Shown: piece after piece, positions 2,381 through 54,385 of the stretch
Numbering within the stretch: the stretch's first letter is position 1
Layout of the letters: every line of letters begins with the position of its first letter
Source of the DNA: Mya arenaria
Taxonomy: Eukaryota > Mollusca > Bivalvia > Myida > Myidae
DNA length: 64,000 nt
Direction: 5' to 3'
Assembly: GCF_026914265.1 (NCBI RefSeq)
Contig: NC_069124.1
Coordinates: 52,998,388 to 53,062,387 of the forward strand
The notes under the pieces: model-generated
The model's input: the letters and a program-made list of their open reading frames with translations, nothing else
What the model was told of the DNA's origin: nothing
The model's database searches: none
Program-made: the position numbers and the translations under genes

Positions 2381-3100
2381 CATAGCCTTGATGTCATCAT
2401 GTTGGTGTCATTGTCGTCATCATGGAAAAGGCAGAGATATATTAGACAAAGAAGATATTATTGTCATGAAACTTGGTATACAAAAACTATACATGTTTAC
2501 TATGACAATATGCGCATGTGTTGTTCCACATTCCATAACACTATTGTTTGTTCAGTTATACCTGTGTACAATGGACGAGTGTTGGCATATGAATGTAATG
2601 CTCTGTTTGGTCTTGTTTTTTGTATTTGTGTAAAAGCTAGATTCTTTTATGTTAAAATAATTTCTGTATGTAAATGGAGTCAGTGCTAAGAATCTTATAA
2701 CTTGAAATGAATTTTGACATCCTGTTTATTCAAAATCATTCTTTTGATAGAACATCTAAAGCACATGCTAGTCCTAAAAGATAGACTGTGTTTTCTGGGA
2801 CTGGTTGGTTTGCCATATCAAAGATTGCCCAATATTCTTACAAGATTCAGTTTGTTTGACTAGAGCACATGCATGCTGTAGCTTTCAATATATAATTTTA
2901 CACCTGCTCAGCCAATGTTGTAAATTTGAGTGGCAAATTTCATTTTAATGTAATGCATTTATAAAATATTTTGCTATGCCACATACAATTGCTTTATGTT
3001 TAGATTTATACGCATTTTGAATTTGTGTTTTTGTTGTCTACTTTCCTAAATTTCTTTTACCACCATGTTTACTTCAATACAATTGGTCTACTTTTTCCAG

Positions 3101-4278
3101 TGACCCTTCTCAGGACAAAGTCAACACTGCCTTTCCACCCGGTACATTTGGAAGCAAGCTAGAGGATTTTGAGACCAGTTATCTGGAATACTTGGCCGAT
3201 GCCCACCTTCGTGTTCTGAAGTGTTCCCAGGCTTGCCACTCATGGCAATATCCGTATGATGGTGACGACCCACCATTCACCAGTTTTGATGTTGACCCCA
3301 GTAACCAGTCTATAGAACTGTCTAAAGATTTCACTGATTCTGTTTCTAACAAGACAGATGAGAGCAAGTTCGCATCAACTGATGCAGAAAATGTCAGTAG
3401 TTTAGAAAGAACCGATGGTGTAGAAAATAACTCAAATGTTGTTCCCAGAAGCTGTGATAATAGTGATTTTAGCATAGTGGATAGTGCAATAGTTAAAACT
3501 GATATTGGAGATGATGATATTAGCTTAACATATGAAAGGGCCAGTAAGAGAGGACGATTCACTTCTGATGAAGACTTCATTACAATGCTTGAAGAAAGTG
3601 CTATCCCTCAAGACAAGTCGGCAAATGTTGAAGATAGCTTGAAAAACTTAGAGTCAGTTTTAACTACTGTTTCACAAACAATGTCTATCTCTTGTACATC
3701 AACACCAAGAAAGGATCGCAGTTTAGATGGAGAATCGATGGTGCTAGGTGCTGAAGGTGAGATGAGCTCTGTGTATTTCGATTGTGAGACCTCCCATGCA
3801 GACGACAGCGCGGCGTTCAAATCCATTGACGACACTTCATTTGATGTCATTGATGATCCCACTAGACAAAAAACTACAAACGCTACAGAATTTGAAATTG
3901 TTGATACTCAGATTACCCAAAGTTCAAATAAAACAAAAGCAGAACAAAGTAGTAAGCCCAGTGATATCACTTCATTTATTGACATATCTTCTGCTGCCCA
4001 GAATTCTGACACAGAAAAGTTGAATTCAGACACAGACTCTATGGAAGTCAGCGTACACCATTTTGGAACAGAAATACCAAAATCTTTGCAACCAGTTAGT
4101 GGCATATTGGTTACCAAGGCGACAGAAGAAGAAAAAGTTGATGGTCAGACAGGAACTAAGGGAGACAAGTCTGTAAGATTTTCAGAGACAACTCAGGTGC
4201 AGACAATAGGCTCTGCAAAGTTGTCATTCAGCATCGGCCTAAATCCATCAGTGAGAGGTGTAGGAACACCAAACATTG
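3101..4278 (+). CDS. FHIP1: FHIP1 exon, Ser/Asp-rich region
   Basis: A long exon with acceptor CTTTTTCCAG and donor ATTG|GTAAGC. It starts with the last base of a split codon and ends with one spare base. It codes the conserved YLEYLADAHL...PYDGDD block, then about 340 low-complexity acidic and Ser/Thr residues likely to be disordered. The TTG at 3192 is an internal Leu codon, not a start. Confidence 0.88.
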
Positions 4279-6131
4279 GTAAGCTTTAAAGATTAATTCA
4301 GTCATTTAAACTTAAAATTTTATGACAAGGATATTTCCTTTTTTTTGTCATAGAGCATCATTACTAAATTTTCCTAAATCATCCTGAAGAATGCATGATT
4401 ATGCAGTATTGACATGTTAAACTTAGTTTTCATTTGTCTGAAAATGTTGTAAATCTAGTGTCAATTTTTGCTTTATCAGTATGAATAATTGAAGACAGAG
4501 GTCACTTCATTCTAAAATTGAGGTGTAGGTTAATCTCAGTAGCAGATTCAATTCAATGCTCTTTATAAAATTGTATGCAATTGATATTATACAGTAGTTA
4601 CGGTAATGCAAGTCCAAATCCATAACATTGAAAGTTTTTGTAAAGCATTGCTACATGATCTTGTCTGTGGTACATCAAAGAAGATAATGATACCCTTCAA
4701 TAAGCCTTGTATGTATTAACAGGGCCATTCCTGACAGCTGTGCTTCTCAAGTTGGAGAGTATGATGCAGAACACCCTGCCGGTGAACCTGATGTTGACGG
4801 GTCTCATCTCTCGTTTGGCTGTGTACAGTCAGCCACTGCTACGATCCTTTCTCCTTAACCACAATCTTGTGTTCCAGCCTACCGTCAAGTCACTTGTACA
4901 GGTAAAGGATGTTTATGAGCGAGATTTTTATTTCATATACTTTAATGTATAATTTGATAATTAACAGTTGATGGGATGACTTTAGAACTGTAGCTACTAT
5001 ATTAATTTATGGATGGACAATTTTGAAAGCAACCTCTTTAGTGATAGTTACTTTTCTCCCTTACATAAACTTCATCAAACTGATTATGTTTAATGGTAAT
5101 TAATTAAATGACAATACTTAAATATACACGTAGGACGTAGGAAGCTCGTGTACATTCAGTACAATACTAACCATTGATAGAAATCTACATAAAACATAAA
5201 ATGTCTTCCAAAGCTTCTATTATAATGTTAAATCTGTGATAATGTAAAATAAGACTCCTACTCACTGAGGGAGAAACTGCCAATATGCTTGATTGCAAAT
5301 CTTAAACATTTTGAGTGTATACAAAATATGTTATTTTCTTCCAATAGGTGTTGACATCAATACGCCAGAGAGTTGACCACTACTCCTATACCATACAGAA
5401 CTTTGAGGCTCTGTTGTTGCGAGCCCGAAGGACGCTTGCCCATCGAGAGGGGAACCTCCCAGAGAGAGCCCACTCTCAAACCCCAAGCCCAGAACTCAAC
5501 ACGAAATTACGGGCTTCTACTGCCGCTGAAATGCCATCAAAAGGTTATATTTTGATTTTATAGTTTTATGTATAAAGTAGATATGAAGTTGTAGTTTTAT
5601 TCTAGAGGTATGTTAGCCATTTCCTTTTGATACACATTCAGTGTTTTTTTAAAAGTTCTAAACAAGAAACAGACTTAAGGTGTTAAAACAAACAACAAGA
5701 TTCATAGACTGGTATATAAAGCTGGTTTAATTGCTTTTACAAAGCAGTTTAATTTCTTTGGAAAGTTGAAACATATGATATTTACGACTGCTGTATGTGG
5801 ATCATTTCCTGTCATGTCTAAATCCGAAATGTTTCCTTTGACAGAAAAAAGACACCGCACTCTGACTGAGCTCCTGTTCCGTCGTAATACACGGGACAAG
5901 AAGTCGTTACCCAGCCCAAATGGAAATGGGAACAAACTGGAGTTATTAACAGGCAACCGAGGCATGCGTTACATCCACAGACGACCAGACGAAAATCCCG
6001 CCAGCTACGGGGAGTCATTGAAGACGAGGAACGCAGTTTATTGCGCCATCGTGCTTGAAGAGTTTGTGAAAGAGCTGGCTTCTCTAACCCAGGAACACTC
6101 AATACTGTTACATGAGGATGAGGAGTTGTGA
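3101..6131 (+). CDS. FHIP1: FHIP1 (FAM160A) Hook-interacting protein, 3' part
   Basis: This is the C-terminal 612 residues of an FTS-and-Hook-interacting protein, coded by exons 3101-4278, 4723-4901, 5348-5543 and 5845-6131. All splice phases agree. In animals FHIP1 joins FTS (AKTIP) and Hook proteins in the FHF complex, which tethers dynein to early endosomes. Recognisable parts are a conserved block with YLADAHL and HSWQYPYDG near the start, a long Ser/Thr/Asp-rich disordered stretch, the signature helices around TGLISRLAVYSQPLLRSFLL and LNHNLVFQPTVKSL, and a C-terminal block with NAVYCAIVLEEFVKELASL. The protein ends in LLHEDEEL. The N-terminal half is outside the window. The gene probably predates the vertebrate FHIP1A/1B split, so it is not assigned to either. 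Confidence 0.9.
4723..4901 (+). CDS. FHIP1: FHIP1 exon, conserved helical core
   Basis: Acceptor TATTAACAG, donor ACAG|GTAAAG. It codes GPFLTAVLLKLESM, then NTLPVNLMLTGLISRLAVYS and QPLLRSFLLNHNLVFQPTV. This is the most conserved C-terminal FHIP segment and the main basis for naming the gene. Confidence 0.92.
5348..5543 (+). CDS. FHIP1: FHIP1 exon
   Basis: Acceptor CTTCCAATAG, donor AAAAG|GTTATA (weak after the GT). It codes VLTSIRQRVDHYSYTIQNFE, then an Arg-rich stretch and a Pro/Ser/Thr linker. It follows phase 0 and ends with one spare base, which the next exon completes to Glu. Confidence 0.88.
5845..6131 (+). CDS. FHIP1: FHIP1 terminal exon
   Basis: Acceptor TTTGACAG. It codes RTLTELLFRRNTR and, further on, NAVYCAIVLEEFVKELASL, ending at TGA 6129-6131. 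The C-terminal block matches the end of FHIP family proteins. Confidence 0.92.
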
Positions 6132-10993: not shown

Positions 10994-11418
10994 TCGAGCC
11001 AACGAGAAAAGCGACCTCGAGCCAACGAGAAAAGCGACCTCGAGCCAACGAGAAAAGCGACCTCGAGCCAACGAGAAAAGCGACCTCGAGCCAACGAGAA
11101 AAGCGACCTCGAGCCAACGAGAAAAGCGACCTCGAGCCAACGAGAAAAGCGACCTCGAGCCAACGAGAAAAGCGACCTCGAGCCAACGAGAAAAGCGACC
11201 TCGAGCCAACGAGAAAAGCGACCTCGAGCCAACGAGAAAAGCGACCTCGAGCCAACGAGAAAAGCAACCTCGAGCCAACGAGAAAAGCAACCTCGAGCCA
11301 ACGAGAAAAGCAAGCTCGAGCCAACGAGAAAAGCAACCTCGAGCCAACGAGAAAAGCAAGCTCGAGCCAACGAGAAAAGCAACCTCGAGCCAACGAGAAA
11401 AGCAAGCTCGAGCCAACA
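10994..11418. repeat. 23-bp satellite, ~18 copies
   Basis: The unit is TCGAGCCAACGAGAAAAGC plus ACCx/GACC-type variants, repeated head to tail. Early copies carry GCGACC. Late copies carry GCAACC and GCAAGC, alternating at the right end as a 46-bp dimer. Because 23 is not a multiple of 3 and the unit has no stops, long open frames appear on both strands (about 130 to 205 codons). These are not treated as genes. Confidence 0.95.
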
Positions 11419-28100: not shown

Positions 28101-31100
28101 GATGTTATTACACTTCATTTAGAAATAAAAACATGTCTGTTAGACAAAACAGCATGTCAGTTAGACACTATAGAATAAGACGTCATAACATAAGACAGTT
28201 ATGGAGTTCCATACGCCATAGTTACAATCAATTAGTTGTAAGGTACTATGATCATTGACTTTTCTTCTGCATGGTGGACTCCGGGTTGTTGATAGACATG
28301 TGCGTCTTAACATGCCGGCTCCTCTTGTTATTTGAGTTTAACTTTATTTAGTTTACAACGAGTGTGAAGAAAGTTATATTAACTTATACCAAGTCACTCT
28401 TGCTGGCACGATGTTGCACGAAAGAGTGTGGTCTTATGTTGTGGGGGGAACCGGAGAACCCGGAGAAAACCCACATGTACGGCCTGGTGACCACCAACCA
28501 AACTCACATGCGCCAAGGCCGGGAATCGAACCTGGGCCGCCTTGATGCGAAGCGAATGCGCTAACCACTGCGCTCACCGGACAACCTCCTCTTGTTATAA
28601 ATTGTGATCAGCCAAATTTGATCAAAATACTTCTCCTTAAGGGTGGAGCCGGTGCTAGAGAGGTACGAGTCCGCCTTGTTGATGATCCTAGGGTTTGGCG
28701 GCTTCTCAATAATTCTGGCGCTCATCCACAACGCCGTCCGTAAGCACATCTTCCACGACGAGCACAACCTCGACACGACGTTCGACGCCGGCGGAAATGT
28801 CTCCCTCAGTCTAACGGCCGTAACCGTCGCGTCACAGCTCATATGGCCAGGCGACATCCTGCACAGCGCTACACTTACCGCAAAGGTTAGTTTGTTTGCA
28901 TTCGCTTCAACATTAATTATAACACTAGCATTACAGTAGCATGACACATTTAACTACTGTCGCAATGATGAACACGTAAAAGAATAGCAACGAGTATTTC
29001 AAAATAAAGATTTAAAATCAGCATTTCAATGTAAATGTATAAAACTATTTATAAATGTATATGTACAACTGTTTACTTTTCCTACATGTTAACCTTATCA
29101 TCAACAAAGCTCCGATCGGGCACCGAACTTGACCTATTATGAACTGGGTCTAATACTTGGCCATCGCCACCGAAATATCTTCTTGGCATTCAAACACAAA
29201 GAACGGTTTGCAGATTCTCATTTTCCTATTCAGTGTGTATAAACAAGGACTGCAATGTCACCACACATGCGAATGTGTCCTGCTTGGTTTCATGGTCCTA
29301 TTTGGGTAAAAAATTACCTGATTGCTTTTAACAAGCCGTTTATTTAGAAGACTGTTTCGTAGTTGTTGTAAACAATCCGACACAAATGTTTGTGAAAGCG
29401 ACAACAGTATACGCATATTTGCTACGCCTTTACAATGAATATGTTTTGTATGGAACGCCGAAGCTGTTTGATACATTCAGTTTTCATTATATGCACATAT
29501 ACTTCATTGTATACAGGTATAACTTCTATAAATGTAGTTAAAATGTTATTATAAAAGCAAAAACATCATAACAGAAAGATAACACGTCATTAAATAAAGT
29601 TAAAACGAATAATGAACATATTGACTTTACCATGTTTACCTTACGATGTGTTCCCTTTAAACAATGGTGTTTTAGCTTTTCATAATTATGTTTTGACTTG
29701 ACATAATGATTTTTAGCCTTTTGTGTTATAATGACGTTTTAGCTTTATTTATTAAGTTATGGTGGTAATATGCATAAGTAATGAGCTAAAGTAGTAATTT
29801 GTTTTTGCTGTACGGTCGTACTGGATCTGATTATTTTTCTAATCTAAGATTTCCACAGGTCGGCGATGAAGTACAGCTGATAATTTCATATAAAGTTCCA
29901 ATGTTATTTAGGATATCATTGACTTTGGTATTCAAGATTTTATTATTTTTTTCTGTCGGACGTTCATTGTCTTTAGTTATGAAATGTAAACCTGGTTGTA
30001 AATCAGAAGATAAGTCACCAAACTTACTTAAAATCCCTAAATTATGGGATACGCATAGAGAAACATAATTTTTGAATAATATTGATACTACAGTTGTTGA
30101 AGGAATTCAAAACAGAATGGACATAGATTCTTATAATTCATTTTCTCAGACAAATATTGATGATAAATTGCTTGAACCATATTGTTTTGTCTTTAGTTCC
30201 AGCTGCTCAAATTATTTTGGTGCAGTGCATAGAAAGCGAAACTATCATGTTAATATCAACTAACCACGCAAATTCCCCTGGTGTAATGGTGAATGCCACA
30301 GAGTAAGAAACATTTATAACAAAATACGAATTTTAACTTTTATTAAGTATAAAAGTATGTACTTTTAAGAGGGCTTAAAATTATAAGCAAGCAATATAAT
30401 ACTACGATGCATGTAGGTAAAAATAAGTTAATCTCAAATACAATTAATCAATTAAGAGCTTTAAAAACTTCTAACGCAAGAACATTTTGGAGAATCATCA
30501 ACTCTGATTTTAAAAGATATAACCCAATTTGCATCCTTAGACGACTTTTTAAAAATAAGGTTAATGGGAATCCAAATATAAACGATGATGATTAACAATG
30601 TGAAAAAATCATAAAAGCGAAGATAGGTATTGAAACTATGAATAAAGAAATGCATGTGTCATTTAATGAACAGAAAATAAATAAAGCGGTTAAATCATTA
30701 GCAATAAAAATGCATCTGGTGATGATAGTAACCTTTATGAACACATCAACTCCACTATACACAGTATGCTTGCTGTCTATGTGAAACTTTTTCATGTCAT
30801 TCTAAAGAGTGGTTACTTTCGAAACAGTGGACAGAAGGCAGCATTAAACCAATTTATAAAAATAAAGGTGATCATAAAACCCTGAAAACTATAGACCCAT
30901 ATCGCTTTCAAGTTACTTCGACCAACTTTTCACTTTGCGTTTTAAATTTTAAAGACTTAACACATATGCAGAGAAATCAAACCTGATAATCGAGAACCGA
31001 GCAGGTTTTCGTAAAAAATCTTAACAGTAGATAAGATGTTCATACTGAAGAGCTTGATTGATGAAGAAAAAAAACAAACTTTTTTTGGATTTCAAGTAGG

Positions 31101-32641: not shown

Positions 32642-35600
32642 TGTACCGTTGCAATTTTACTGTAATTTTGAAGTGTTTGAAAATTTTCTTCAGGTAACAA
32701 TGAATTTAAAATAACACTGCTTTTATCAATGCATTCACCATGTTAAGATTACCATATCACTTACAATAATGATACTGAATTGTTTTATACTGAACTATGG
32801 TGGATATCTTCCGAGACTTTTGAAATATAATTATGAAACATTTTTATTTTCTACTCAAGTTATACATGTACATGTTGCTAATTGTGCAATTCTAAACATT
32901 TTCTATGTGCTGTTCTATGCCTTTTTCGTTTTGTGATTACTGTTAATAAGTTCATTAAATGTAAATAAATATATAGTATAACAAATTGCACAAGGCTGAA
33001 GTATTTGAAGATTTTTTTCTTTATTTTTTAAAATAATTCATTCCCAAATACGACCACATTTGTCTTAAAATGTTAAGATAACCGGATCAATAATGCTACT
33101 CAATTGTTTTAAACTAAATCATGGTTCAAATTTACACACTATTTAGCATTAAGTAACTTCTACACTGTTGTAATAATTGTTCGCCGTTTTTCAATGTTCA
33201 TTTCATCTGCTTATGTTTCTTGTACTGCGTGTATGACTTTGCATATTGTTTTTAATAAAAAAGGTACAGTAATATGAATTCAGGTTTTATACAGGTAATG
33301 TTTCATGCTGTGCTTTTATTGCTACCAATTAAGTTGTCAGACTAGTATTCTTCACAAACTCATGATAATGAAGTGCGTGCAAATATGCGTTTACCGTAGC
33401 CATTCGAAAATAATCGCAGTGTTTGCAAAAACTGCATAAAAAATATTGAAAACGCACTAGTAGATCCAGGCATGACGCGGGAGGGGGCGCACCCTGCGCC
33501 AGTCCAAGTCTTTTTATTTTAATACAGAAGAAAAAGGTAAAAAAATACGCCCAAAACGCAACATTTCGGACAAAGGAATGTTAAATTTTGTTTATGAGGG
33601 ACGCCCCTCCCCTGCCAACACCTGCAACCAAATAAATTCCGGTTGTGAGAGAGGGGCGCAAGTAAAAAGATTACGCCCCTCAGTAACACCCTCTCTAACG
33701 TCAAATCCAGGATCCGCACCTGAAACGCACACACCGAAGGAAGCAGAACTCGACAGGCTGTATCGCATTTCAAAATTAAAAGTATATTAAAAGTAATTGC
33801 TGATTACTTTCTGTAATAACACATTTATTTACTTGACGCCAAGCAGGATATTTTTTATAAAATTGCAATTCCTGTTTTTCCACAATGAACTAGATGTAAT
33901 GCTATTTGACGGCGAGGATTTAGTGTCTTATATACAATTTTGTACTGAAATCTGTATTGCACCGTTCATCATTGATGCACGAACATCATACAATTTAACT
34001 AAAAGTGTCAATAGAAATTACTAAATTGTGTATGCTCATATATTTCAGAACGGCATAGCTGGACCATTTTGGTACGCGGTCGGGATCATATTCAACATCT
34101 TCATATTTCCCGTGTTTTCCGTCCAGTTTAAAACGCGGGCTCCCGGGGCCAAAACATACCTTCAAGTAAGCTTATAATCAGTTCCTGTTGTAACAAAATA
34201 TACATTAAATCATTATGTTTGTCAATTCAGTTATGGAATACATGAGCACTCTAAGGTGCACTCGTTTCTCCGGTTTGTCCATCTTTGGAGGCACAACTCC
34301 TCCTTGCTCCATGTCATAGCAAACCATATTCTTGCTCACAGAGCTGTAGCTGGCTGCTCGTGGTTTATCCCCAGTTGGTGAAACAAAACAGACTGGTCAT
34401 ATGCAGAGATTTGATCACTGTCATATCCTTTCTGTAGTATCACTTGAGTCAATCTCTTCTTGTTTGACTTCCTTCCTTCCTTCCTTCCTTCCTTCCTTCC
34501 TTCCTTCCTTCCTTCCTTCCTTCCTTCCTTCCTTCCTTCCTTCCTTCCTTCCTTCCTTCCTTCCTTCCTCCCTCCCTCCCTCCCTCCCTCCCTCCCTCCC
34601 TCCCTCCCTCCCTTCCTTCCGCCCTTCCTTCCTTCCTTCCTTCCTTCCTTCCTTCCTTCCTTCCTTCCTTCCTTCCTTCCTTCCTTCCTTCCTTCCTTCC
34701 TTCCTTCCTTCCTTCCTTCCTTCCTTCCTTCCTTCCTTCCTTCCTTCCGTCCTTCCTTCCTTCCTTCCTTCCTTCCTTCCTTCCTTCCTTCCTTCCTTCC
34801 TTCCTTCCTTCCTTCCTTCCTTCCTTCCTTCCTTCCTTCCTTCCTTCCTTCCTTCCTTCCTTCCTTCCTTCCTTCCTTCCTTCCGCCCTTCCTTCCTCCC
34901 TTCCTTCCGTCCTTCCTTCCGCCCTTCCTTCCTTCCGCCCTTCCTTCCTTCCGCCCTTCCTTCCTTCCTTCCGCCCTTCCTTCCTTCCTTCCTTCCTTCC
35001 TTCCTTCCTTCCTTCCTTCCTTCCTTCCTTCCTTCCTTCCTTCCTTCCTTCCTTCCTTCCTTCCTTCCTTCCTTCCTTCCTTCCTTCCTTCCTTCCTTCC
35101 TTCCTTCCTTCCTTCCTTCCTTCCTTCCTTCATTCCTTCCGCCCTTCCTTCCTTCCTTCATTCCTTCCGCCCTTCCTTCCGCCCTTCCTCCGTCCGTCCG
35201 TCCGTCCGTCCGTCCGTCCGTCCTCCTCCCTCCCTCCCTCCCTCCCTCCCTCCCTCCCTCCCTCCTCCTCCTCCTCCTCTTTTTCTTCTTCTTCTTCTTC
35301 TTCTTCTTCTTCTTCTTCTTCTTCTTCTTCTTCTTCTTCTTCTTCTTCTTCTTCTTCTTCTTCTTCTTTCGGTCTTTCCTGACCTTCCTCAGGACCCTTC
35401 TGATCACGGTTGATTCTTTCAGCAGCAAGCTGCCGATCTACAGCAAAGCGAATTGGTATCTTCGATTTGGAAAGATAGTTATTACATAGGTCTTATTGCA
35501 GTCTAATCATACTTTCTTAGGAGTTTTTCAATGAGGTACTGATCATCTCATGTTGAAGGCAAGACCGCTTTAGGTGTTTGGCTTGGAAAAAAAATGTTTG

Positions 35601-38600
35601 TTTCCATGATATGCAATTTGTTTTAGTATGATAGTGGACATCGGTTGGCAATGCGTTTTCGGCCAGCATGTCATTCAAATCTGAAAATAATTTATTCTTC
35701 AAAGCCGATAATGAATATGTACCCCAAAGTTACATATTAAAATTGCAATAACAAACAATTGAAAATGTTTTGTTTCTCGTGTGGCCAGTGAACGTTTTGG
35801 TTGCTACGAAGTTTTAGCGCTTGTTGGTAATTCTATTACCACGACGTCATTGACGTCGTCAATGTCATTGGTTCTTCAAAGGCATTTACACTTGATTTTT
35901 GTTTTCATCCAAAACGAGTGAAACTAAATAAGTCGATAAAAGAACATAAATGTTAACATTATTTATTCATTTAAAAAAAACTTGTTGTTGTTTTTTCAAT
36001 GAGTGAAAGTACCCTATTGTGTAGGTGATCCATGCAAGGTTCGGTCGGAACGCTCACATCGTGTTCTGCTGTTTCGCCCTCGTGACCAACCTCGTGATCA
36101 CAATCGGGATCCTCCTGGCGGGGCGTGCTACAATCCAGTCACTCACGCGGGACGCCTCGGATGAATTCACTCTCCTCACCATGGCGGTGCTCTTCGGATC
36201 CTACTCGCTGATTGGTGGACTCGGAACTACTTTTTACGTGTCGTATTTCAACGCGTGTCTCGTGTTTGTCCTGTTAATCGTGTTCGTTGTCAAGATTTGG
36301 CACAATACAGATGAGGAGTACTCGGCAATTGGAAACGTTGAGCGGATGTACACGGCCATATCGTGCATTAAGGGACCGGAAGAGAACTACGACAACAGCT
36401 ACCTCACCTTCCGGTCTGGCGTTGCCTTCCTCTTCGGCGTCATAGAGGTACTTAACTGGCAATAGCTCGAATTGATAGATACTTGAAAATAGAGGGATAT
36501 GCTTAGGCTATTGTAAATAATCGTTAAGTTGTGACCAACTTCATGCATGAAAAATAGCAGAACCTTACATGACAGCTGCATGTACTTTTAACATACCAAA
36601 AATATAAAACTTTAGCTACATAATTTATGCAACTCCTGGAACGACCTAAAACCTCATCATTAAATGAAGAGAAAAATCAAATGTATAAAATCCATCGATC
36701 AAAATTTATCTCAGTGCCCTATATGACAGGTGTTCGTGTCGTCAGCGGTGACGTACTGTGACCAGGCATCCTGGCAGTCTCGGATCGCCGCCAAACCGAT
36801 CCAGGGCGTATACGGCTTCTTGTTGGGTGGCCTCATGTGGTTCGCCATCCCCTCCACCATGGCCACAACCACTGGTCTCGCGTACCTCGCCCTTAGTGCG
36901 GAGAACAAGACCAACCTTCTCACGCGTGGACAGATTGACGAAGGTATATTGTTATAAAACAAAATTGAGCTTCTCATTATTTTCAATTTCGTTTTTCTTT
37001 GTTTATTTAAAGGAGGTGGAATTGGCGTAATCATGCATGCCTTTAATTCTAAACACCTTGCCGTGACCACTTCTAAATTAACATAGACCGTCGGGAAAGA
37101 TAAGTAACGTGGAATACAAACATAGACATTGTACATTTTGGATTCGTATGAAAACGGCTGGCTACTGTAAGAGTATTAGGCATTTTGAAAGTTATACACA
37201 TTATATCCCTCTTGCAGGCCTGGTGACGCCGCTGATCGCTGAGACCGTGCTGGGGTCGGCGGGAGGCATCCTGGTGTTGACAATGGGCGCCATGGCCCTC
37301 ATGTCAACCGGAAGTGGAGAAGTGATGGCCATGTCATCCATCATTGTCTATGACATCTACCAAACGTACATCCGGCCCTTTAGGTGGGTAACAACCTCAC
37401 GGTTACGGCTTATCGGTAACTGACATTACTTTTATTACATGTCAAAGTGTTCATGTCTTCTTGTTCATGGTGAAAACACCATTGCGTACCTTACTAAAGA
37501 CAGGTCGCATTGCTTAACTACAATACGTTTGTTTCTTCTGATCTTTTTTTGAGAGAAAAAACCAATCTGCCTGAAAATTAAAGTGTGAAGTGTAGCGTGT
37601 TATCGATCGGAGGGGTGAAATATTTATATTAATATACATGTATAAACGAACAGAAATATTATCTTGCATTTCGTTTTGTAAGTTGTTCCGAACACAGCAT
37701 GTAAATGCCAGCAGATGCACGATATCTCGTGCGGGGTGTTAACTGACAAGTCCTGGAAGCTTCAACTATGAAGATAATGAGGCCTTCTCACACGAATATC
37801 GCTTGTTTGTCAGTCGTCAGCACTTCTCTTGTACATTAACATTCCAAAAAATCATGGCTTTATTTCAAATAAGCATTTTTTTCTTCGTAATGGGCCAAGA
37901 AATAGGTTAGGTGTTTTTTCATGTTATTTCGTCGTTATAAACACAACGTAGTCTTGTGAATAATGTTTGAGGAATAAAAAATTAAACATTGTTTGCGATT
38001 TTGTTGTACTTAACACGATGTAATAGTTTTATTGCGTCGCAGCACATGCAATCTGAAACCATGTAAGCCATACAATTATCATCTGAAATAATGTTATCTG
38101 AACCTGTTGCAAACCGCTTACCAGAACTTGTACATATATCTTACTAGAATAGTAACTAAAATTTTGAACTAGGGACCCATTTCAGTAAGGTTTTTAGTTG
38201 TAACATCACAAACGGCAACACATTGATTATTTTTATTTCCTCAACTTTGTGGTCATCTTTAATACTTGCTGAAGTTCGATTCACTGAAATAGGTAACAAA
38301 CGCATGCATTTATGACACTAAAATATTCTCAATTTACGACTAAAATCGACTGAGATCTTTATTAAAACGTCCATGGCGTGGAAGGAAACAAACACTTCAT
38401 AGAAATGTTCTTATTTAGTTCTAAGTAATGTTATTAAAGATGCATTCTCACAGATTGAACGTTTTGACAACATTTGTTTTGTCTTGGAACGAGCCATTTT
38501 TTGCGAAAATCCATGGATACCAGTTAAATAAGACTGCTGACAAAAAGTTAGATCGCATATCTTCTGATGTTTTGAAAGCAATCTTAATCATAATTTTTCG

Positions 38601-41600
38601 AACGGAAATAGGAAAATCTACGATCTGATTTGTTTGTCAGCAATGTTTTATTATTGAATAGAAAATAAACTACATGTGCAATTAAATGCAAGATTTCTTT
38701 GAACAATTCTTTTTTGTTTTGAGACGCAAAGTAGCAGTATGTCACCAGACTCGAATTTCATTTTGTAATTTGTTCAATTATTTACAAACACAAGAAATCT
38801 TATCCTAAGCGCGCATCAATGGCAAGGTTACTATGCTGTCGGGAATTTAATTGGCAATGTGCTTATCACCAAGAAATTCCATTATCTAAGCAAATAATAC
38901 AATCATAAAACTGTAGTCAAATGTGCTTGGTCATCAAATATTTATGGTCAAAGTGCCCATAGTATTTCTTTGAACTCGCCCCTAACACAAACGTTTTATT
39001 TGGTGTTTATTGTCCTCGTAGACGGTATTGGTGACACGGTGTGAGACAGCGAGTCTGTGAGCAAAACTGCTATAAAAGATTACTATAAGAGGGTTGTCTA
39101 CGTCGAGTGATTTATTCGAAAAAAGGGTTGGTGCTAATCTTAAAACAAATTAATTTTAAAATACATGGTCTCATTGGTTCAATAAATCTCACTTTTACAC
39201 CGTTTTACGACTTGCTTATCTGAGAGCAAATCTGTGTTGAAATGGCTACTAGCTCTTTCTTTGTACAATATATAGAGCATTATTGGGAGAACAACTCTCG
39301 TTACCCGCAATCAAAGTGGCATAACTCTACCTCCATATCCCGAACACACCAAGTAGTTATCGAGCCAATACTGTAATCGCACTGTCCGTCCGTCCGTCCG
39401 TCAGCCAGATGATGTCGTTTATCAGCTGTTTCTTACTCAAGTTTTATTATTTATCAAAATTCACGGAATTGTACAGCAGCATGGGCAGGTGTGTCACGCA
39501 TAGCATTCGTGATATAATCTTAAAGATCAAGGTCACACTTAAATGGCTTTGAACCATATATTCCATAGGAATTCAATGGTAACACCTTGTGTCACTCTGT
39601 TTAGATGAATTTTGACCACAGTTCACAGATTTGTAGAGTTGCACTGGATGGTATGTCGCTCATAACATTTGTACTTGCATCGCAAATACTTAGTGGTCAG
39701 TAGAGACTAATGGGTATTTTATGGTAATAAATCATGTCTCAGCTGTAACCTTATCACATCCTGTGCGTTGGGATTCATTTTGACAAATGAAAAAGTCGTC
39801 CAACTTCAGGTCAATAATTTTTATGTCAGTTACAACCATCTGATCAGTTTATCTTCGTATTATACAAATACTAGGCCACGTGTCTGGCCTACTGCACGTG
39901 TCATTAAGCCTTAGTTTCAATAAATGATTAAAACAGGAAAAAACTTCTTTACAGAAATAAAATACATACATACTAAAATAACACGTTTTACTTAGGGCTA
40001 CACCAGACAAGTAAATTAGATCTATGGAGATATTGTCCTGAAAATCTGAGAGAGTTTGGGGTTGAACATGTGTCGCCATTAAAGGACCATCTTTTACTCT
40101 AGTTGCATTGACTGAAAACACCCCCAATCAGCCTTAAAGAATGATGTATACTTCAATGGTAGGTGATTCTTTGTTATATATTATTTGCACTTTTCCAGGC
40201 GGGGTTTGACTGAGCTTGACTGTGTTCTATGCGGAAAGAAGAAGAAAGACATTATACGCAAGAAGCAGACGAACCAGTCACGAAACAGGTGTGAGTGCCC
40301 GGATGTCTCGTGCTGTCAGCCGTGCATAGACGACATGAAAGCGAGACACGGCAAGGGACATAACGGCACCAAACCTCCATATACGTAAGAATGTTATTAT
40401 GTTTACTCTGCAATGGATCAAATACTTCTTGAAATATAAATATTCAAAAAATAAATAAAAACCAAACTTGTATTGTTTTGAGATACTGTTTTTTAGAAGT
40501 ATATTGCTGTCTTCCTCTTTGCTCTTGATTCATGAAGATAGATGGTCCTTTATAAACTTTGTGTTATACTGGTGATTTAACTTTTCTTGCACTCCAATGT
40601 GCATGGCCATTTTGTTTTGTCTTACCTATTCCCCCAGCTGCAAGACCCACGGTCAATACCGAGAATACCAGGACAGTCTGATCGGGTTTAAGGACTGGTG
40701 TATCGTCATGGTAACCATCTCCATTATACCCCTGGGTCTCGTGGTCTTCGAGACCGGGATCGACCTAAACTGGATCTTCTACAGCGGCGCCATCGTCACC
40801 ATCCCCTGTTTCCCACCAGTCATCCTCTCCATCATCTGGGTCAAAGCCACAGGGAAGGGGCTTATGTCAGGTAGGGCCGGGCATATTGATATACTAAATC
40901 ACACAAAATAGGATCAAGGCCACTGGAAAGAGGTTTATATCAGGTATGGCCGGGCTATACTAGATAGTACAAATCTGGGTCAAAGTCACCGGGAAGAGGT
41001 TTATATCAGATAAGAATCGGCGTATTGATATACTAAATAGCAAAATATATGTATCAAGGCCACTTGGGAGCTTATTTCAAGTAAGCCGTGCGTATTTATA
41101 TACTAGCTAGCACATATCTGATGTAAGTCTCTTCATGGCCGGGCGCATTAATTTACAAAAAAACTGGGTCAAGACCATCGAGGTGAGGACCGACGTATTG
41201 ATATACTACATATCAAACGTCTGGACCAAAGACACTGAGAATGGGTTTATGTCAGGTAAGGTCGGGCGCATTGATATACTGATAGCTTAAATATGGTCAA
41301 GGCTAACGAAAAGGGGCTTACATCATGTAAGGCCCGACGTAAAGCAAACATTTGAGTAAGGGTCACTGAGAAGGAGCTTATGTCAGTTAAGGCCGGGCTT
41401 ATTGATATACCAAATTGCCAAAATCTGGTTCAAAGCTTCTAGGAATGAGCTTATATCAGGTAAGGCCGGGCGTTTTGATATTTTAGAGAGCCAAAATCGG
41501 TGTCAAGGCCAGCGAGATGGGACTTTAGTCAGGTAAGCAACGGCATATTGCTCAATGGCAGCGGGAAGGGGCGTTTGTCAGGTAAGTGTCGGCAGTTTGA

Positions 41601-43552
41601 TATACTAGATTATACAAATCTGGGTCAAGGCCACAGGAATCGAACCTATATCAGGCTAGTGCGGTATTGAAATTGTATTGTTGATAGCTCTGTCACAATT
41701 AAGCAAGTAACGATTTTACTGTGACTCGATTATGGGAAAGGGGCTTTTTTTCAACTTTATCAAATACAATACCAACGAGGAAATGGGCTTATCAGTGGCG
41801 GCATTTAACTTACTTTCAGTGATCAAATTTCAAGATGAATTCCGGATTAAGGTCACGGGAAATAGTCAAATCCTATCATGCCAGGAGCGTATATTTCAAT
41901 TCAAACCTAGCTCATACCTGAGGAAATGCCAAGTGCTGTGAAAGGGTGGTGGGTAATGCTAATTTTAGTATTGACCGTAAGCTTATTACAGTACAAGCAC
42001 CGGCCCATTGAATTTACGTAAATGAACGTGACTTTTATGGCATTTCTAGAACTGGGAGTGGCAATAATGGAAACAAAACTATACACAGTTAATGCATCAT
42101 GATTCATGAGTTGTCAATGTATGAAACGAACCCATATGGCATTTTTCTAGAAATCAAAAAAGGATGATGTTGATGTCATATATTATTTGTTTATACCAGT
42201 TCGCATCGATCATTCGAAACACTTCTATGATCCTTAAGATGTAGTGTATGCCAGTTTGCTTGATTCAATTCAGTTGTCTTTTATTTAGAGAAAAATAGTG
42301 GTCTAAATCCGGTTAGTGACATTAAAAACCCTTGATAAATGTTTACAAGCATCGCGTTTCCTCAAGAAATGAAGAAATCATTACGCACAGACTTAAATGA
42401 CGACGGCGACCGCTTATTCATTAGATTTGTGGACAATTAATGCGTTTTATATATGATTTATCATAGGAAAATGATACCCAACATCTGTATTCAGCCAGTA
42501 TATTGAGTTAAACTTCTTTTGTAGTTTGTTATGCGGACGACGTTACTCCTTCTTTAGAAATAATTGATCTCTTTGCACAAATAGTTATTGGATGTTATTT
42601 GAGATACTGTTCGGATGTTTTAATGTCGATCTGTTATACACTGAGTCAAAGAAAACTATATTGACATGAACACGTGAACAGTTAGTGAACAACAAAACAG
42701 GGACCCACGGAGACTTATTTTAAGAATGTGCGTTCATGCAAAAAGTCGCATTGGTAGTAGACGAACCCTAGATAAACTACGCAATAACATTATATCCTTT
42801 AATAGCTTATCAGTGATAAGCTATATTATCGAATGTCATTAAGTTGTTGTTGTTGTTTCTAAAATTTAAACCCCACCCTTTATCTCCATCTATTATTTGT
42901 AGGTGGGGCCGCGGGCCTTGTGTGCGGGGTGACGGCTACCCTGGTCACCGCCTCCTTCTACGAAGGCGGACTCAGCAACTTCCTGTTGAACACGGTCCAG
43001 AACTACGCCATTTTGGCCGGCACGTGCTCCAGTTTCGGAGCTAGTCTTCTCTGTTGCATAGTTGTTTCGCTTTTTACGCATGACATCAAAACGGTCGACG
43101 ACGAGAATTTCGAGTGGCAAAAAATGTATGACATAGAAAACCCTCTGAATCCATGGGAGTTAAATTATCGCGAGGAGTTAAAGGGTTTGGAATACGAAGG
43201 AAAGCCTACATTCGAACAGATGGCGGAAACATTTAGGAAAGCTAAACTAACCGCTTACATCGGTGGCGCTATATGCATAGTGGCGTTCGCGGTGGTTATC
43301 CCCGGCATCATGGCGATGTTCCCTAAGATGGATCTTACCCAGTTTTCTTTCTGGATTTGGGGTACCCAGATTTTCGCCGTCATCATGGCGGTGATCGTGA
43401 TCGTAGCGCCGATGGCCGAGGAGATTCACAAGATCATGAAGGAGTACCGGAAGTCGGCGCATAAAATGAACGTAGGGTATGGACAGATGAATGTCATCAA
43501 TGCTGAGCACGCTGACCAAGAGGATGGTAAAACACCCGTTACGAATGTTTAA
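18517..43552 (+). CDS. DUR3: DUR3-like urea/proton symporter (nine exons)
   Basis: Exons 18517-18575, 28642-28885, 34049-34165, 36025-36447, 36730-36943, 37218-37383, 40199-40384, 40638-40870 and 42903-43552 join in phase to 2292 nt, giving 763 residues. The family is the sodium:solute symporter fold (SLC5-like). Yeast and plant DUR3 carry urea, and in yeast also polyamines, across the plasma membrane with protons. Diagnostic stretches are [75 protein letters not shown] and [19 protein letters not shown]. About 13 or more hydrophobic helices are visible. Residues 416-474 form a Cys/His-rich hydrophilic loop. The C-terminal tail is short and hydrophilic. Exon 1 is the least certain part; the rest is firm. 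Substrate is inferred from the family. Confidence 0.92.
19089..19226. repeat. (TTG)n/(GTG)n ... (CAA)n fold-back microsatellite
   Basis: A TTG-repeat and GTG-repeat tract is followed within 60 bp by ACCCAACC and CAACAACAAC tracts. The two sides are complementary, so the strand could fold into a hairpin. Confidence 0.8.
20809..21169. mobile_element. Fold-back MITE (AAAGCTGCACTCTCACAGA family), copy A
   Basis: The ends TTAAAGCTGCACTCTCACAG and CTGTGAGAGTGCAGCTTTAA are inverted, and inversion continues inward through CGTTTTGACAAC, TTTGTCTTGGAA and CAGACTGC-type blocks to the centre at about 20990. The whole ~360 bp is a near-palindrome. TTAA at the ends suggests a TTAA target. No coding. Confidence 0.88.
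22250..22332 (-). mobile_element. tRNA-like SINE head
   Basis: Read on the minus strand, GTGGACGAGTGGATAAAG resembles an A box and CATGGGTTCGCTCCCC a B box, at tRNA-like spacing. It lacks an intact acceptor stem and is taken as a SINE head rather than a working tRNA gene. Confidence 0.5.
23176..23290 (+). mobile_element. pogo/Tigger-like transposon end
   Basis: TA followed by CAGTTGAACCCCGTTGGCTC and GAACTCGCTTGGCTCGA matches the type of terminus at 10871. No matching right end or transposase was found nearby. Confidence 0.5.
24925..25110 (+). mobile_element. tRNA-derived SINE
   Basis: The tRNA-like head has GTGGTCTACTGGTAGAGG and the B box GAGGGTTCGATCC. It is followed by GGTACTTTCGTATGACCTC and a body shared with 11660-11800. 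It is preceded by a T10 and G14 homopolymer pair. Confidence 0.7.
25698..26059. mobile_element. Fold-back MITE (AAAGCTGCACTCTCACAGA family), copy B
   Basis: Same family and length as 20809-21169, with both inverted ends intact (TTAAAGCTGCACTCTCACAG ... CTGTGAGAGTGCAGCTTTAA). Apparent short open frames inside are by-products of the palindrome. Confidence 0.88.
26640..28190. repeat. Paired inverted arrays of an ATGTCTAACTGACATGTTATT-like motif
   Basis: From 26640 to 26960 short units built on ATGTCTAAC-GACATG and TTATTATGTCTAA are repeated. From about 27620 to 28190 the same motif recurs in reverse complement (TTAGACATAATAACATG). A 36-bp non-repeat block at 26948-26983 is also mirrored near 27887-27924 (GAAATGGACAATACGTC), showing that the two arms are one inverted repeat. 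Confidence 0.8.
28319..28598 (-). mobile_element. Young tRNA-derived SINE with 13-bp target duplication
   Basis: On the minus strand it has A box GTGGTTAGCGCATTCG, B box CCAGGTTCGATTCCC, a body with TGGTGGTCACCAGGCC and GGGTTTTCTCCGGGTTCTCC, and a tail with AATAAAGTTAAAC. It is bounded by perfect direct repeats CTCCTCTTGTTAT at 28319-28331 and 28586-28598. The intact duplication suggests a recent insertion. It sits in DUR3 intron 1. Confidence 0.9.
28642..28885 (+). CDS. DUR3: DUR3 exon 2
   Basis: Acceptor CTCCTTAAG, donor AAAG|GTTAGT. It codes residues 21-101, with the first membrane helix ([20 protein letters not shown]), [15 protein letters not shown] and [25 protein letters not shown] target duplication ends only 43 bp before the acceptor junction. 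Confidence 0.93.
28886..29979 (+). other. DUR3 intron 2, left part
   Basis: Non-coding AT-rich sequence with nothing recognised. Confidence 0.5.
29980..32400 (+). mobile_element. Decayed LINE (non-LTR retrotransposon)
   Basis: Fragments read as LINE endonuclease-linker and reverse transcriptase: a linker with [15 protein letters not shown], then [35 protein letters not shown] and [13 protein letters not shown]. Stops and frame changes are scattered throughout, so it is not active. Motif order matches CR1/Jockey-like LINEs. It lies in sense orientation in intron 2. The 5' end is unclear. Confidence 0.75.
32551..32638. repeat. (TA)n microsatellite
   Basis: About 88 bp of uninterrupted TA repeats in DUR3 intron 2. 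Tyr-Ile open frames here are meaningless. Confidence 0.97.
33463..33722. mobile_element. hAT-like MITE, family with CAGG-GCGGATCC end
   Basis: The right end (minus strand) CAGGTGCGGATCCTGGATTT and the left end (plus) GTAGATCCAGGCATGACGC are loosely inverted. Both lead into GAGGGGGCG blocks. Related pieces occur at 46540-46762 and 52384-52576. The CAGGGGCGGATC-type tip is typical of hAT MITEs. Confidence 0.6.
34049..34165 (+). CDS. DUR3: DUR3 exon 3
   Basis: Acceptor TATTTCAG, donor TCAA|GTAAGC. It codes 39 residues from [12 protein letters not shown] to [11 protein letters not shown], a highly conserved DUR3 block. Phase 0 on both sides. Confidence 0.95.
34166..36024 (+). other. DUR3 intron 3
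   Basis: About half of this intron is the polypyrimidine tract at 34470-35378. The rest is AT-rich with nothing recognised. Confidence 0.7.
34470..35378. repeat. ~0.9-kb polypyrimidine compound microsatellite
   Basis: Mostly (TTCC)n, interrupted by (TCCC)n near 34570 and GCCC/GTCC variants, then (TCCG)n near 35190-35222, (TCCC)n, (TCC)n and finally (TTC)n to 35368. The plus strand, which is the DUR3 sense strand, is almost pure pyrimidine. All frames are open by composition only. Confidence 0.97.
36025..36447 (+). CDS. DUR3: DUR3 exon 4
   Basis: Acceptor TTGTGTAG, donor AGAG|GTACTT. 141 codons, residues 141-281, with several helices and [20 protein letters not shown]. An acidic/polar loop ([14 protein letters not shown]) precedes the next helix. 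Phase 0 on both sides. Confidence 0.95.
36730..36943 (+). CDS. DUR3: DUR3 exon 5
   Basis: Acceptor ATATGACAG, donor GAAG|GTATAT. It codes [20 protein letters not shown] and [20 protein letters not shown], conserved in DUR3 proteins. It ends with one spare base. Confidence 0.95.
37218..37383 (+). CDS. DUR3: DUR3 exon 6
   Basis: Acceptor CTCTTGCAG. The donor TTTAG|GTGGGT is fixed by the phase of the next exon, which restores Arg at the join. It codes [12 protein letters not shown] through [11 protein letters not shown]. Confidence 0.93.
38434..38655. mobile_element. Fold-back MITE, truncated copy C
   Basis: It starts TTAAAGATGCATTCTCACAG and carries the left arm and centre of the 20809/25698 family. 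It breaks off after GATTTGTTTGTCAGCA without the right end. Confidence 0.75.
39380..39650 (+). repeat. Dispersed repeat headed by (TCCG)n
   Basis: (TCCG)n at 39382-39402 leads into TCAAAATTCACGGAATTGTA and GCAGCATGGGCAGGTGTG. This TCCGTCCG head also starts the element at 62261, suggesting a related, diverged family. Confidence 0.5.
40199..40384 (+). CDS. DUR3: DUR3 exon 7, Cys-rich loop
   Basis: Acceptor TTTTCCAG, donor ATAC|GTAAGA. It codes residues 409-469, a hydrophilic insert with [16 protein letters not shown] and two His (458, 462). It has no hydrophobic helix, so it should lie outside the membrane between two helices. Confidence 0.9.
40638..40870 (+). CDS. DUR3: DUR3 exon 8
   Basis: Acceptor CCCCCAG, donor TCAG|GTAGGG. 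It completes the Cys/His loop (TCKTH), then codes two helices ending [17 protein letters not shown]. Its last ~35 bp and the donor are the founder unit of the array at 40836-41665. Confidence 0.93.
40836..41665 (+). repeat. Tandem array of DUR3 exon-8 end plus splice donor, ~13 units
   Basis: Unit 1 contains the last ~35 coding bases of DUR3 exon 8 (ATCTGGGTCAAAGCCACAGG...), the donor, and an intron part (GGCCGGGCATATTGATATAC). About twelve diverged copies of ~45-76 bp follow. Copies with a CAGGTAAG-type donor are at 41256, 41460, 41533 and 41582. Coding potential is lost after unit 1: an in-frame stop lies at 40909-40911. Confidence 0.92.
41666..42902 (+). other. Rest of DUR3 intron 8
   Basis: A degenerate echo of the array may remain at about 41729-41750 (ATTATGGGAAAGGGGCTT). 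Otherwise nothing recognised. Confidence 0.5.
42903..43552 (+). CDS. DUR3: DUR3 terminal exon
   Basis: Acceptor ATTTGTAG. 215 codons plus stop, starting [20 protein letters not shown] across the join. It carries the last helices, a polar stretch with [11 protein letters not shown]-like character, and a tail ending KTPVTNV. It is normal in length for the family. Confidence 0.94.
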
Positions 43553-51882: not shown

Positions 51883-53379
51883 GTTCCCTTCGTCTGTGCG
51901 CAGTTGGACACATTCGCAATTGACCTCGCTGGAGGTCAATTTGAAGCCATTCCAAATTTTAGATCTGATTACGAGTTATTAACAAACAAAACAAAAACAA
52001 TGATTTATCTGTAGATAATCTGCCGACGCATCCAAACAAACCACTCAACACTACTGTTTTAATTATGAAAACCTATACAATGTTGATTGTTAAACTGTTT
52101 TGAAGCTGTTCAGTCTCGAAATATGTCAGTTTGCAGACTCGGTCCAAATGTATACCAATAGCGACCTACTTTTAGGAGAACCATTATCAAACTATTGTCA
52201 CGGAATCTGTTTTTGCCTTGTATGACATTTTGGTTCAAATAGCATACGTCAGTGGTGTAAAGATTCCCATATCACAGAGGGATTTTCTTATTCATTGAAA
52301 TCTTTAATGTTTTACTTTAATGAAAATACACAGAACTTCCTCAATTTTTGTTACTCTAGCGGATACTTAAATCTTCGAAATTAACTTTTTATTTCATTTT
52401 CGGAGAAAATACAACCAAATGCACCATTTAGGACTAGAAATTGATAGATGACTACACCCACCCCCGCCAACGCTTTAAACTAAATACATTGCGGGTCTGA
52501 GGGAGGGGCGCAAGTCAAAAGCTAACGCCACTAAATGACGCCCCCGTCTAATGTAAAATCCTGGATCCGCCCGTGTGTTTTGTTGAAATTGGAATGGAAA
52601 ACAAAGGCAGCATAGCAATGAATCTTCATAAACTTGAAAAGTACGTCTGTGGAATAGTAAGAGTGGTAATATTAAGAGCTTTGCTATGATTGCTTGGTTC
52701 AATTTCTCGAAAATCTTCAGTTGTGTCTTAGACCGACCTATTGTAGCCGGAGCACGGTGGCCATTCAAATATTGGGAATGGCAAGGTGTAGTATAGGAAA
52801 TGTTTATGCGAAACATTTGGTTTTGATAAATAGGTTTTTTTCGTACATGAAAATATGTACATGTTCAAACTCCTTTGAGCACTATTACGCCGACGAACTT
52901 TCGCGAAACTCATCCTCATCACTATCATCATCCACGCTACCAAAATACGACAGAGTATTTACACATGTTAATAGTGGGCATGAGTGCAAGATCGGAAAGG
53001 CGTGCGCTTCGTCATTTAAACAGGACAGTCTGTTCTGCCGCAAAACATACTTATTGTGGGCATGTTTTTGTAGGAATGCGTTTGAACGTGGTCTGTAGTT
53101 TTAAATCTCAAGGAACAGGACATGCACTTGTTATACTAGTGCAACACCCTTATCATTAAGCTGTCCATAATATCACTTTCACCTTTGCACGTACGTAGTC
53201 ATGTACGCTTCAAACGACGTCCTCGTGTGATTTCGACCTTACTGGATGTTGCAAGCTACAATCGATGCTCAAGAGTATTTGGACTGGGCCGTGTCATCAA
53301 AAGGCACGGGTCAATAATACTGTTCAAAAATATCTCCTTTAAATCGTTCCTAGGAGTCTTGATGAGGCGGTTCATGCTA
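51883..53379. other. TDO upstream region
   Basis: Non-coding by eye. 52384-52576 holds a fragment of the hAT-like MITE family, ending in GGATCCGCCCGTG. Nothing else recognised. Confidence 0.5.
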
Positions 53380-54385
53380 AAGATGACTTCAAAACGTGAC
53401 ATTGGATCATTCACGCTATGGACGACTTCAAAATGTTACCTTGGAGCTTTAACGCTATAGACGACTTCAAAATGTGACCTTTAGTCATTCACGCTATAAA
53501 CGACTTCAAAACGTGACATGGGATCATTCACACTATGAACGACTTCAAAATGTGACCTTAGATCATAAACGTTATATACGACTTCAAAATATGACCTTAG
53601 ATCATTAACGCTATGGGCGACTTCAAAATGTGACCTTAGATCATTCACGCTATGGACGACTTCAAAATGTGACCTTTAGTCATTCACGCTATGGACGACT
53701 TCAAAATGTGACCTTTAGTCATTCACGCTATAGACGACTTCAAAATGTGACCTTGGATCATTCACGCTATGAACGACTTCAAAATGTGACCTTAGATCAT
53801 TCACGCTATGGACGACCTAAAATGTGACCTTGGATCATTTACGCTATGGGCGACTTCAAAATGTAACCTTGGATCATTTACGCTATGGACGAGTCGACTT
53901 CAAAATGTGACCTTGGATCATTTACGCTATAGACGACTTCAAAACGTGACCTTGGATCATTCACGCTATGAACGACTTCAAAATGTGACATTGGATAATT
54001 CACAATGTGAACGACTTCAAAATGTGACCTTAAGTCATTAAAGCTATAGACGACTTCAAAACGTGACCTTGGATCATTCTTGCTATTAACGACTTCAAAA
54101 TTGTGACCTTCAGTCATTCACGCTATAGACGACTTCAAAATGTGACCTTGGATCATTCACGCTATAGACAACTTCAAAATGTGGCCTTAGATCATTCACA
54201 GTATGGACGACTCCAAAATGTGACCTTGAATCTTTCATGCTATAGACAACTTCACAGTGCGACCTTGGATCTTTCACATAGACAACTTAGAAGTGTGACC
54301 TTAGATCTTGCACGCTTAAGACGACTTCAAAGTGTGACCTTGAATCGTTCACGTTTTAGACGACTACTTGTGTGACCCTGGATCC
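53380..54385. repeat. 39-bp satellite, ~26 units, rich in TGACCTT
   Basis: The unit is ACGACTTCAAAATGTGACCT plus TGGATCATTCACGCTATGG, mostly at exact 39-bp spacing. Short units near 53812 and a long one near 53890 shift the frame. About 18 units keep TGACCTT. The 39-bp length preserves an open frame (13-residue repeat), but this breaks at the irregular units and no gene is called. Confidence 0.95.

Follow-up and report, generated by a model that had tools for sequence, protein, structure and literature searches.

A tandem array of exon-end and splice-donor copies, probably an old minisatellite, in an intron of a DUR3-type urea transporter gene

Tandem duplication of sequence that spans an exon border has been described before and can give rise to an intron, as in the potato RdRp gene (PMC4974935); the same paper recounts cases from ATP2A1 and from fission yeast. 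The intron analysed here likewise holds duplicated border sequence, in the form of an exon end and its donor repeated many times downstream of the original. A search of the open-licence literature found no report of an array of exon end and donor copies in the following intron.

Host gene and extent of the array

The window, by which we mean the whole 64-kb stretch of DNA that was analysed, carries on its + strand a DUR3-type urea transporter gene with eight coding exons placed between positions 28643 and 43552. The spliced translation is open over 743 residues, with AG at 7/7 internal acceptors and GT at 7/7 donors. The Pfam family SSF was recognised in it (E 6.2e-10), and it aligned with three distinct PDB sequences of the urea-proton symporter DUR3 (E 1e-67 to 8e-63), of which the best bears out the gene identity proposed in an earlier note on this DNA. 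Judged by its sequence, the gene is a member of the DUR3 urea transporter family (sodium:solute symporter superfamily), with urea transport as its putative function. The first placed exon has no AG at its 5' border, and a start exon upstream of it is probable; such an exon would fit the earlier note's count, in which the exon at 40638-40870 was exon 8. Searched alone against Pfam, this exon matched no family. It is flanked by introns of 253 nt upstream and 2 kb downstream.

40638..40870, + strand: DUR3 exon giving the array founder (number eight, should there be a start exon upstream); AG/GT borders in the gene model, ends in phase 1
40834..40906, + strand: founder unit of 73 nt, made up of 37 nt of exon, the donor CAG|GTAGGG at 40870|40871 and 36 nt of intron
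40871..42902, + strand: host intron of 2,032 nt, phase 1; gene model, same site and phase in the paralogs described below
40907..41682, + strand: 11 clear copies and a probable fragment; repeat search, copy profile and self-comparison
41135-41156, + strand: the probable array fragment; profile E 0.79
42903..43552, + strand: last DUR3 exon; gene model and PDB DUR3 alignment

Elsewhere in the gene, a cysteine-rich and lysine-rich exon with a CxxC-like pattern (40199-40384) lies outside the alignment to the PDB DUR3 chains and matches no Pfam family above cut-off; it may be a metal-binding insert. A (CTTC)n tract of roughly 200 repeats, with (TCT)n behind it, occupies 34468-35368 within the intron at 34166-36024.

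Comparison of 40836-41665 with itself gave off-diagonal matches down to E 5e-27, and the identity at a shift of 73 was 0.398, whereas shifts 10-319 averaged 0.259 (sd 0.024). The periodic array that the earlier note had described as starting from the end of exon 8 is thereby confirmed, as is its founder unit of exon end, donor and intron start; the span given, 40836..41665, located the array correctly and fell short at its end, which lies at about 41682. "About twelve copies" was a fair description of the founder, the 11 clear copies, the probable fragment and faint traces at 41735-41792 (profile E 2.5-3.5). The equivalents of the last exonic base lie in the 11 copies at 40943, 41009, 41080, 41182, 41255, 41326, 41386, 41459, 41532, 41581 and 41654, and the spacings of the 12 units are 49-73 nt, one gap excepted.

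A repeat search identified a 47-nt core in 10 copies, in a register that matches the exon end. The profile derived from the copies, which was built from the same 12 units and thus gives extent and not independent significance, recovered 12 units including the founder at E <= 2.3e-9; the next match (E 0.1) was on the opposite strand within the array, and the best one outside it in the window had E 1.1. Searching with the array sequence by blastn revealed no match elsewhere in the 64-kb window at E 0.01. Tandem Repeats Finder, for which the divergence among the copies is too great, detected just a 1.9-copy piece with period 73 (41370-41506). In the PDB search the translated exon end aligned with plant-type DUR3 chains, which makes the exon the original and the array its derivative. 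An assembly artefact (stutter or collapse) is unlikely, given that the copies differ strongly from each other and that the array recurs at a second locus.

Minisatellites consist of tandem units of about 10-100 nt, and the head-to-tail 73-nt units of the array fit this description. The window also contains minisatellites at 10994-11417 (23-nt unit, 98% match, 18 copies) and 53371-54365 (39-nt unit, 82% match, 25 copies), and, on the + strand at 3021-4289, a 422-residue open frame that is probably a large exon of another gene.

Strength, conservation and decay of the copied donors

Donor scores were computed from donor frequencies. On this scale the real donor at 40870 scores 8.86, the best of the six DUR3 donors scored, and 5/11 copies outscore it. 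The donors quoted in the earlier note (the real one and the copies at 41256, 41460, 41533 and 41582) were exact on checking, and its claim that stronger donors lie downstream of the real one holds.

41253..41261, + strand: copy donor CAG|GTAAGG, GT at 41256, score 11.41
41457..41465, + strand: copy donor CAG|GTAAGG, GT at 41460, score 11.41
41530..41538, + strand: copy donor CAG|GTAAGC, GT at 41533, score 11.08
41579..41587, + strand: copy donor CAG|GTAAGT, best in the array, GT at 41582, score 12.64
40909..40911, + strand: TAG, in-frame stop met by read-through beyond 40870

Within 795 nt, 6 sites score at least as high as the real donor, compared with 16 per strand over the full 64 kb. The predicted pairing energy with U1 is nearly equal, at -11.2 for the real donor and -11.5 for CAG|GTAAGG. 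The GT is intact in eight copies (last exonic base equivalents 40943, 41080, 41182, 41255, 41326, 41459, 41532 and 41581) and has become AT, TT or GC in the other three.

Use of a copy donor is computed to add 73-784 nt to the transcript. As the earlier note had predicted, read-through to any copy meets the TAG at 40909-40911, which is the first in-frame stop in 11/11 computed cases and lies within 41 nt of the exon end, so that the last DUR3 exon would go untranslated. The distance from this stop to the junction is at least 98 nt in 10/11 copy cases and 32 nt for the donor at 40943. Splicing at the five stronger copy donors requires exons of 545-944 nt.

For the donor block (-3..+5), a test chosen after the sequence had been seen and with the fragment and the faint traces left out, an alignment not anchored on the donor showed 8/87 mismatches compared with 158/650 elsewhere (rank test P 0.002; eight random columns P 0.0007). 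The block was the best-kept 8-column window of the unit in this alignment, in which a second block, TTGATATAC, was almost as well kept. An anchored alignment gave 8/87 against 202/696 mismatches (Fisher 3e-5). The GT itself was retained in 8/11 copies where about 6 are expected under neutral decay (P 0.19), and it ranks 21st among 72 dinucleotides for intactness. Neutral decay from CAG|GTAAGG predicts that 2.1 copies reach the score of the real donor at 26% divergence (P 0.04 for the five observed), 1.5 at 30% (P 0.009), 2.8 at 22% (P 0.11) and 3.7 at 18% (P 0.30); with the donor of the founder as the starting point, fewer are expected (1.1 at 26%, P 0.003). The conservation of the donor block is thus suggestive as a trace of selection and is not proof of it. 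The exon halves of the copies change most at third codon positions (35/115 versus 20/125 and 29/115, P 0.03), an excess that may be due to chance.

Outside the donor, the copies diverge from their consensus by 24-29%, depending on the alignment. For 9/11 copies no other unit is closer than the founder (closest alone in 5, tied in 4), and the mean K2P distance is 0.37 between founder and copies and 0.53 among copies. This star-like pattern looks like an early single burst followed by independent decay, with no later homogenisation. Within its coding half, the founder departs from the 12-unit consensus at two third positions, both silent; with a leave-one-out consensus, a Met/Ile site joins them. 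Along the array, distance showed no significant trend with donor strength (rho 0.31, P 0.35) or with identity to the founder, and we accordingly dropped both selection against nearby donors and outward growth from the exon as explanations.

We also considered a donor hairpin of TATRTCA and TGATATA. Its arms pair in 88.5% of cells compared with 6.5-45% when slid, but the stem is derived from the same sequences, compensatory changes are absent and there was no gain over shuffled partners; the hairpin was rejected. On folding the 12 units, two beat nearly all shuffles (40943, z -2.4; 41326, z -3.1), ten were ordinary, and no structure shared among them was found.

A second array locus and array-less paralogs

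The assembly (1.216 Gb, 18 contigs) was searched for further arrays and for DUR3 relatives; the array search scored the best candidates, so its counts are lower bounds. The array is present in at least two places on the same contig, 2.2 Mb apart, namely in the window (C3:53.04 Mb) and at C3:55.21 Mb. The second array belongs to a duplicated segment that covers at least 25.0-54.4 kb of the window, with 97-98% identity in the two longest alignments (window 25016-54350; counterpart within C3:55190000-55219999, L015-L017). It has the same number of copies and differs by one mismatch and one gap across 829 positions. We do not take this low divergence as constraint on the array, since the rest of the intron differs at 4/1237 positions and the intron at 37384-40198 at 3/2815, compared with 1/829 in the array. 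The duplicate DUR3 gene lacks one base in its last exon, which shifts the frame; its protein before the frameshift is unchanged over the six exons compared despite nine substitutions. Either a recent duplication whose gene is decaying or a haplotype placed wrongly in the assembly could account for the 55.21-Mb copy.

A protein search with the exon at 40638-40870 revealed 12 places: the exon itself, its duplicate and ten others. Seven of these (L005-L011) reach the exon end, while L012-L014 stop earlier and are uninformative on the intron; L012 and L007 may be parts of one gene. In 7/7 of the diverged paralog exon ends (38-43% protein identity) the boundary lies at the same site and in the same phase. 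Five have the donor TCAG|GTAAAT, one has ACAG|GTACAA and one (L010) has AT instead of GT. None of the seven carries clear copies of its own exon end within the following 1.46 kb. Their best local scores were 18-26 against maxima of 24-29 in 100 shuffles, and L010, alone above its shuffles (26 versus 24), was regarded as noise. In comparisons of the window unit with whole paralog loci, L009 scored 30 against 23 in 30 shuffles, which we put down to its homologous exon end. Since all seven exon ends have the intron and lack such copies, the intron predates the array; of the loci found, only the window paralog and its close duplicate carry the array. Five of the DUR3-like exon matches (L006, L008-L011) are clustered in about 54 kb at C3:47.08-47.13 Mb; this is a family expansion in which one member (L010) has perhaps decayed.

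The paralogs also bear on the history of the real donor. At position +4 the founder has G, and A is found in 10/11 copies and in 5/6 paralog donors having GT. The G is therefore probably derived, and the real donor is probably somewhat weaker now than when the array arose.

Interpretation and comparison with described systems

In our judgement the locus is probably an old minisatellite of an exon-intron boundary, mostly neutral, that bears strong latent donors. A 73-nt boundary stretch of the window DUR3 paralog was multiplied head to tail into the intron, with slippage or unequal exchange as the probable mechanism. Each copy then decayed on its own, whereas the exon remained constrained by its coding role, and the copies have good donors because these were inherited from the founder. 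The donor at 40870 would still be used, being nearest the acceptor across the exon, and any leakage to the copy donors would yield transcripts with a stop shortly behind the exon end. We infer the neutrality of the array and the continued use of 40870 from sequence; the copies would be silent, or nearly so, inside the older intron. The earlier note had offered tuning of DUR3 output and neutral debris side by side. The evidence leans to debris, given that GT shows no clear excess of retention, that 7/7 paralog exon ends lack copies in the 1.46 kb behind them and that 40870 is nearest the acceptor across the exon; the conservation of the donor block keeps tuning alive. The note's description of the real donor as essential finds no support in the analysis.

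Tuning would mean that the array is a selected stack of U1 sites. U1 at the strong copy donors would compete with the real donor or assist it, a fraction of the transcripts, spliced at a copy and containing the stop, would be degraded or truncated ahead of the last exon, and DUR3 output would be lowered and set through the premature stop, the real donor having been weakened after the array arose. The density of strong sites, the five copies that outscore the best of the six DUR3 donors scored, the well-kept donor block, the probably derived +4 G and the stop met in every computed case, in 10/11 of them 98 nt or more upstream of the junction, all agree with such a role. We nevertheless regard it as unlikely. 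The retention of GT is not clearly above the neutral expectation, the seven paralog exon ends lack copies in the stretch compared, U1 is predicted to pair almost as strongly with the real donor as with CAG|GTAAGG, and the better donors need the long exons given above. A database study found that donors closest across the exon are preferred when the flanking introns are large (PMC9225289), which favours 40870, although the case is not clear-cut with introns of 2 kb and 253 nt. In another reading, U1 at the copies would act without splicing, strengthening exon definition or guarding the intron from early polyadenylation. As in PAH exon 11 (PMC5933811), U1 bound just downstream of a donor can support it, and a conserved donor block would suit this role, as would the lack of a clear excess of retained GT, which cleavage requires more than pairing does. 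The real donor, however, is already the best of the six, the closest copies are at least 73 nt away from it, the single AATAAA/ATTAAA match of the intron (42321) lies outside the array and the paralogs manage without any array; we consider such a helper function quite improbable.

Two further explanations fare worse. If each CAG|GTAAG served as both acceptor and donor, the intron could be removed stepwise by recursive splicing; the motif is juxtaposed in the copies as this would require, and even full use would leave no trace in the mRNA. By sequence, however, the acceptor quality before the AG of the copies is too poor, and we rejected this explanation as very improbable: the 16 nt before the CAG are purine-rich, with a pyrimidine fraction of 0.25-0.56 in the 12 units against 0.50-0.81 in 7 real acceptors (P 3e-4), and Drosophila ratchet points lie mainly in long introns (PMC8605326), whereas the intron here has 2 kb. 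Birth of the intron itself by tandem duplication of an exonic AG|GT sequence, with the array as remnant, is scarcely credible. The start of the intron, GTAGGGCCG, does resemble the start of the next exon, GTGGGGCCG, with an anchored score reached by 39/1000 shuffles and by 2/182 other AG|GT sites. Yet the similarity is weak: it stops after 9 nt and is weaker for the consensus of the copies (73/1000 shuffles), and the array-less paralogs, which already bear the boundary at the same site and phase in all seven cases, contradict an origin of this kind.

The array is a natural experiment on 5' splice-site choice, in which one acceptor faces a ladder of near-identical and partly stronger donors at known spacings, and the arrayed duplicate and the array-less paralogs provide a comparison set in the same animal. 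If 40870 alone is used, this would be a clear case of proximity across the exon overriding donor strength; if the copies are used, a minisatellite would have turned into a regulatory device.

Among described systems, the intron gain in potato RdRp (PMC4974935) shares with the array the tandem duplication of a border-crossing segment that carries splice signals. There the 3' end of an intron was duplicated once and a new intron resulted, whereas in DUR3 the donor side was copied about twelve times inside a pre-existing intron. The tandem 24-bp exonic AGGT copies of fission-yeast genes (Zhu & Niu 2013, as told in PMC4974935) are similarly short AG|GT units; they are exonic and an intron forms across them, in contrast to the DUR3 unit, which is half exon and half intron and for whose copies splicing is not known. 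The intronic minisatellites of earthworm metallothionein (PMC12783039) are likewise invertebrate intronic arrays with a function that is unknown or absent, but the passages on them describe no unit with an exon end and a donor. Ratchet points of recursive splicing (PMC8605326) share the intronic CAG|GTAAG motif with the DUR3 copies, which differ in that they have no usable acceptor tract, lie in a 2 kb intron and owe the motif to duplication of an exon end. PAH exon 11 (PMC5933811) resembles the array in having U1-like sites downstream of a real donor; there it is a single close site whose effect was tested, and in DUR3 it is a dozen predicted sites at distances of 73-784 nt.
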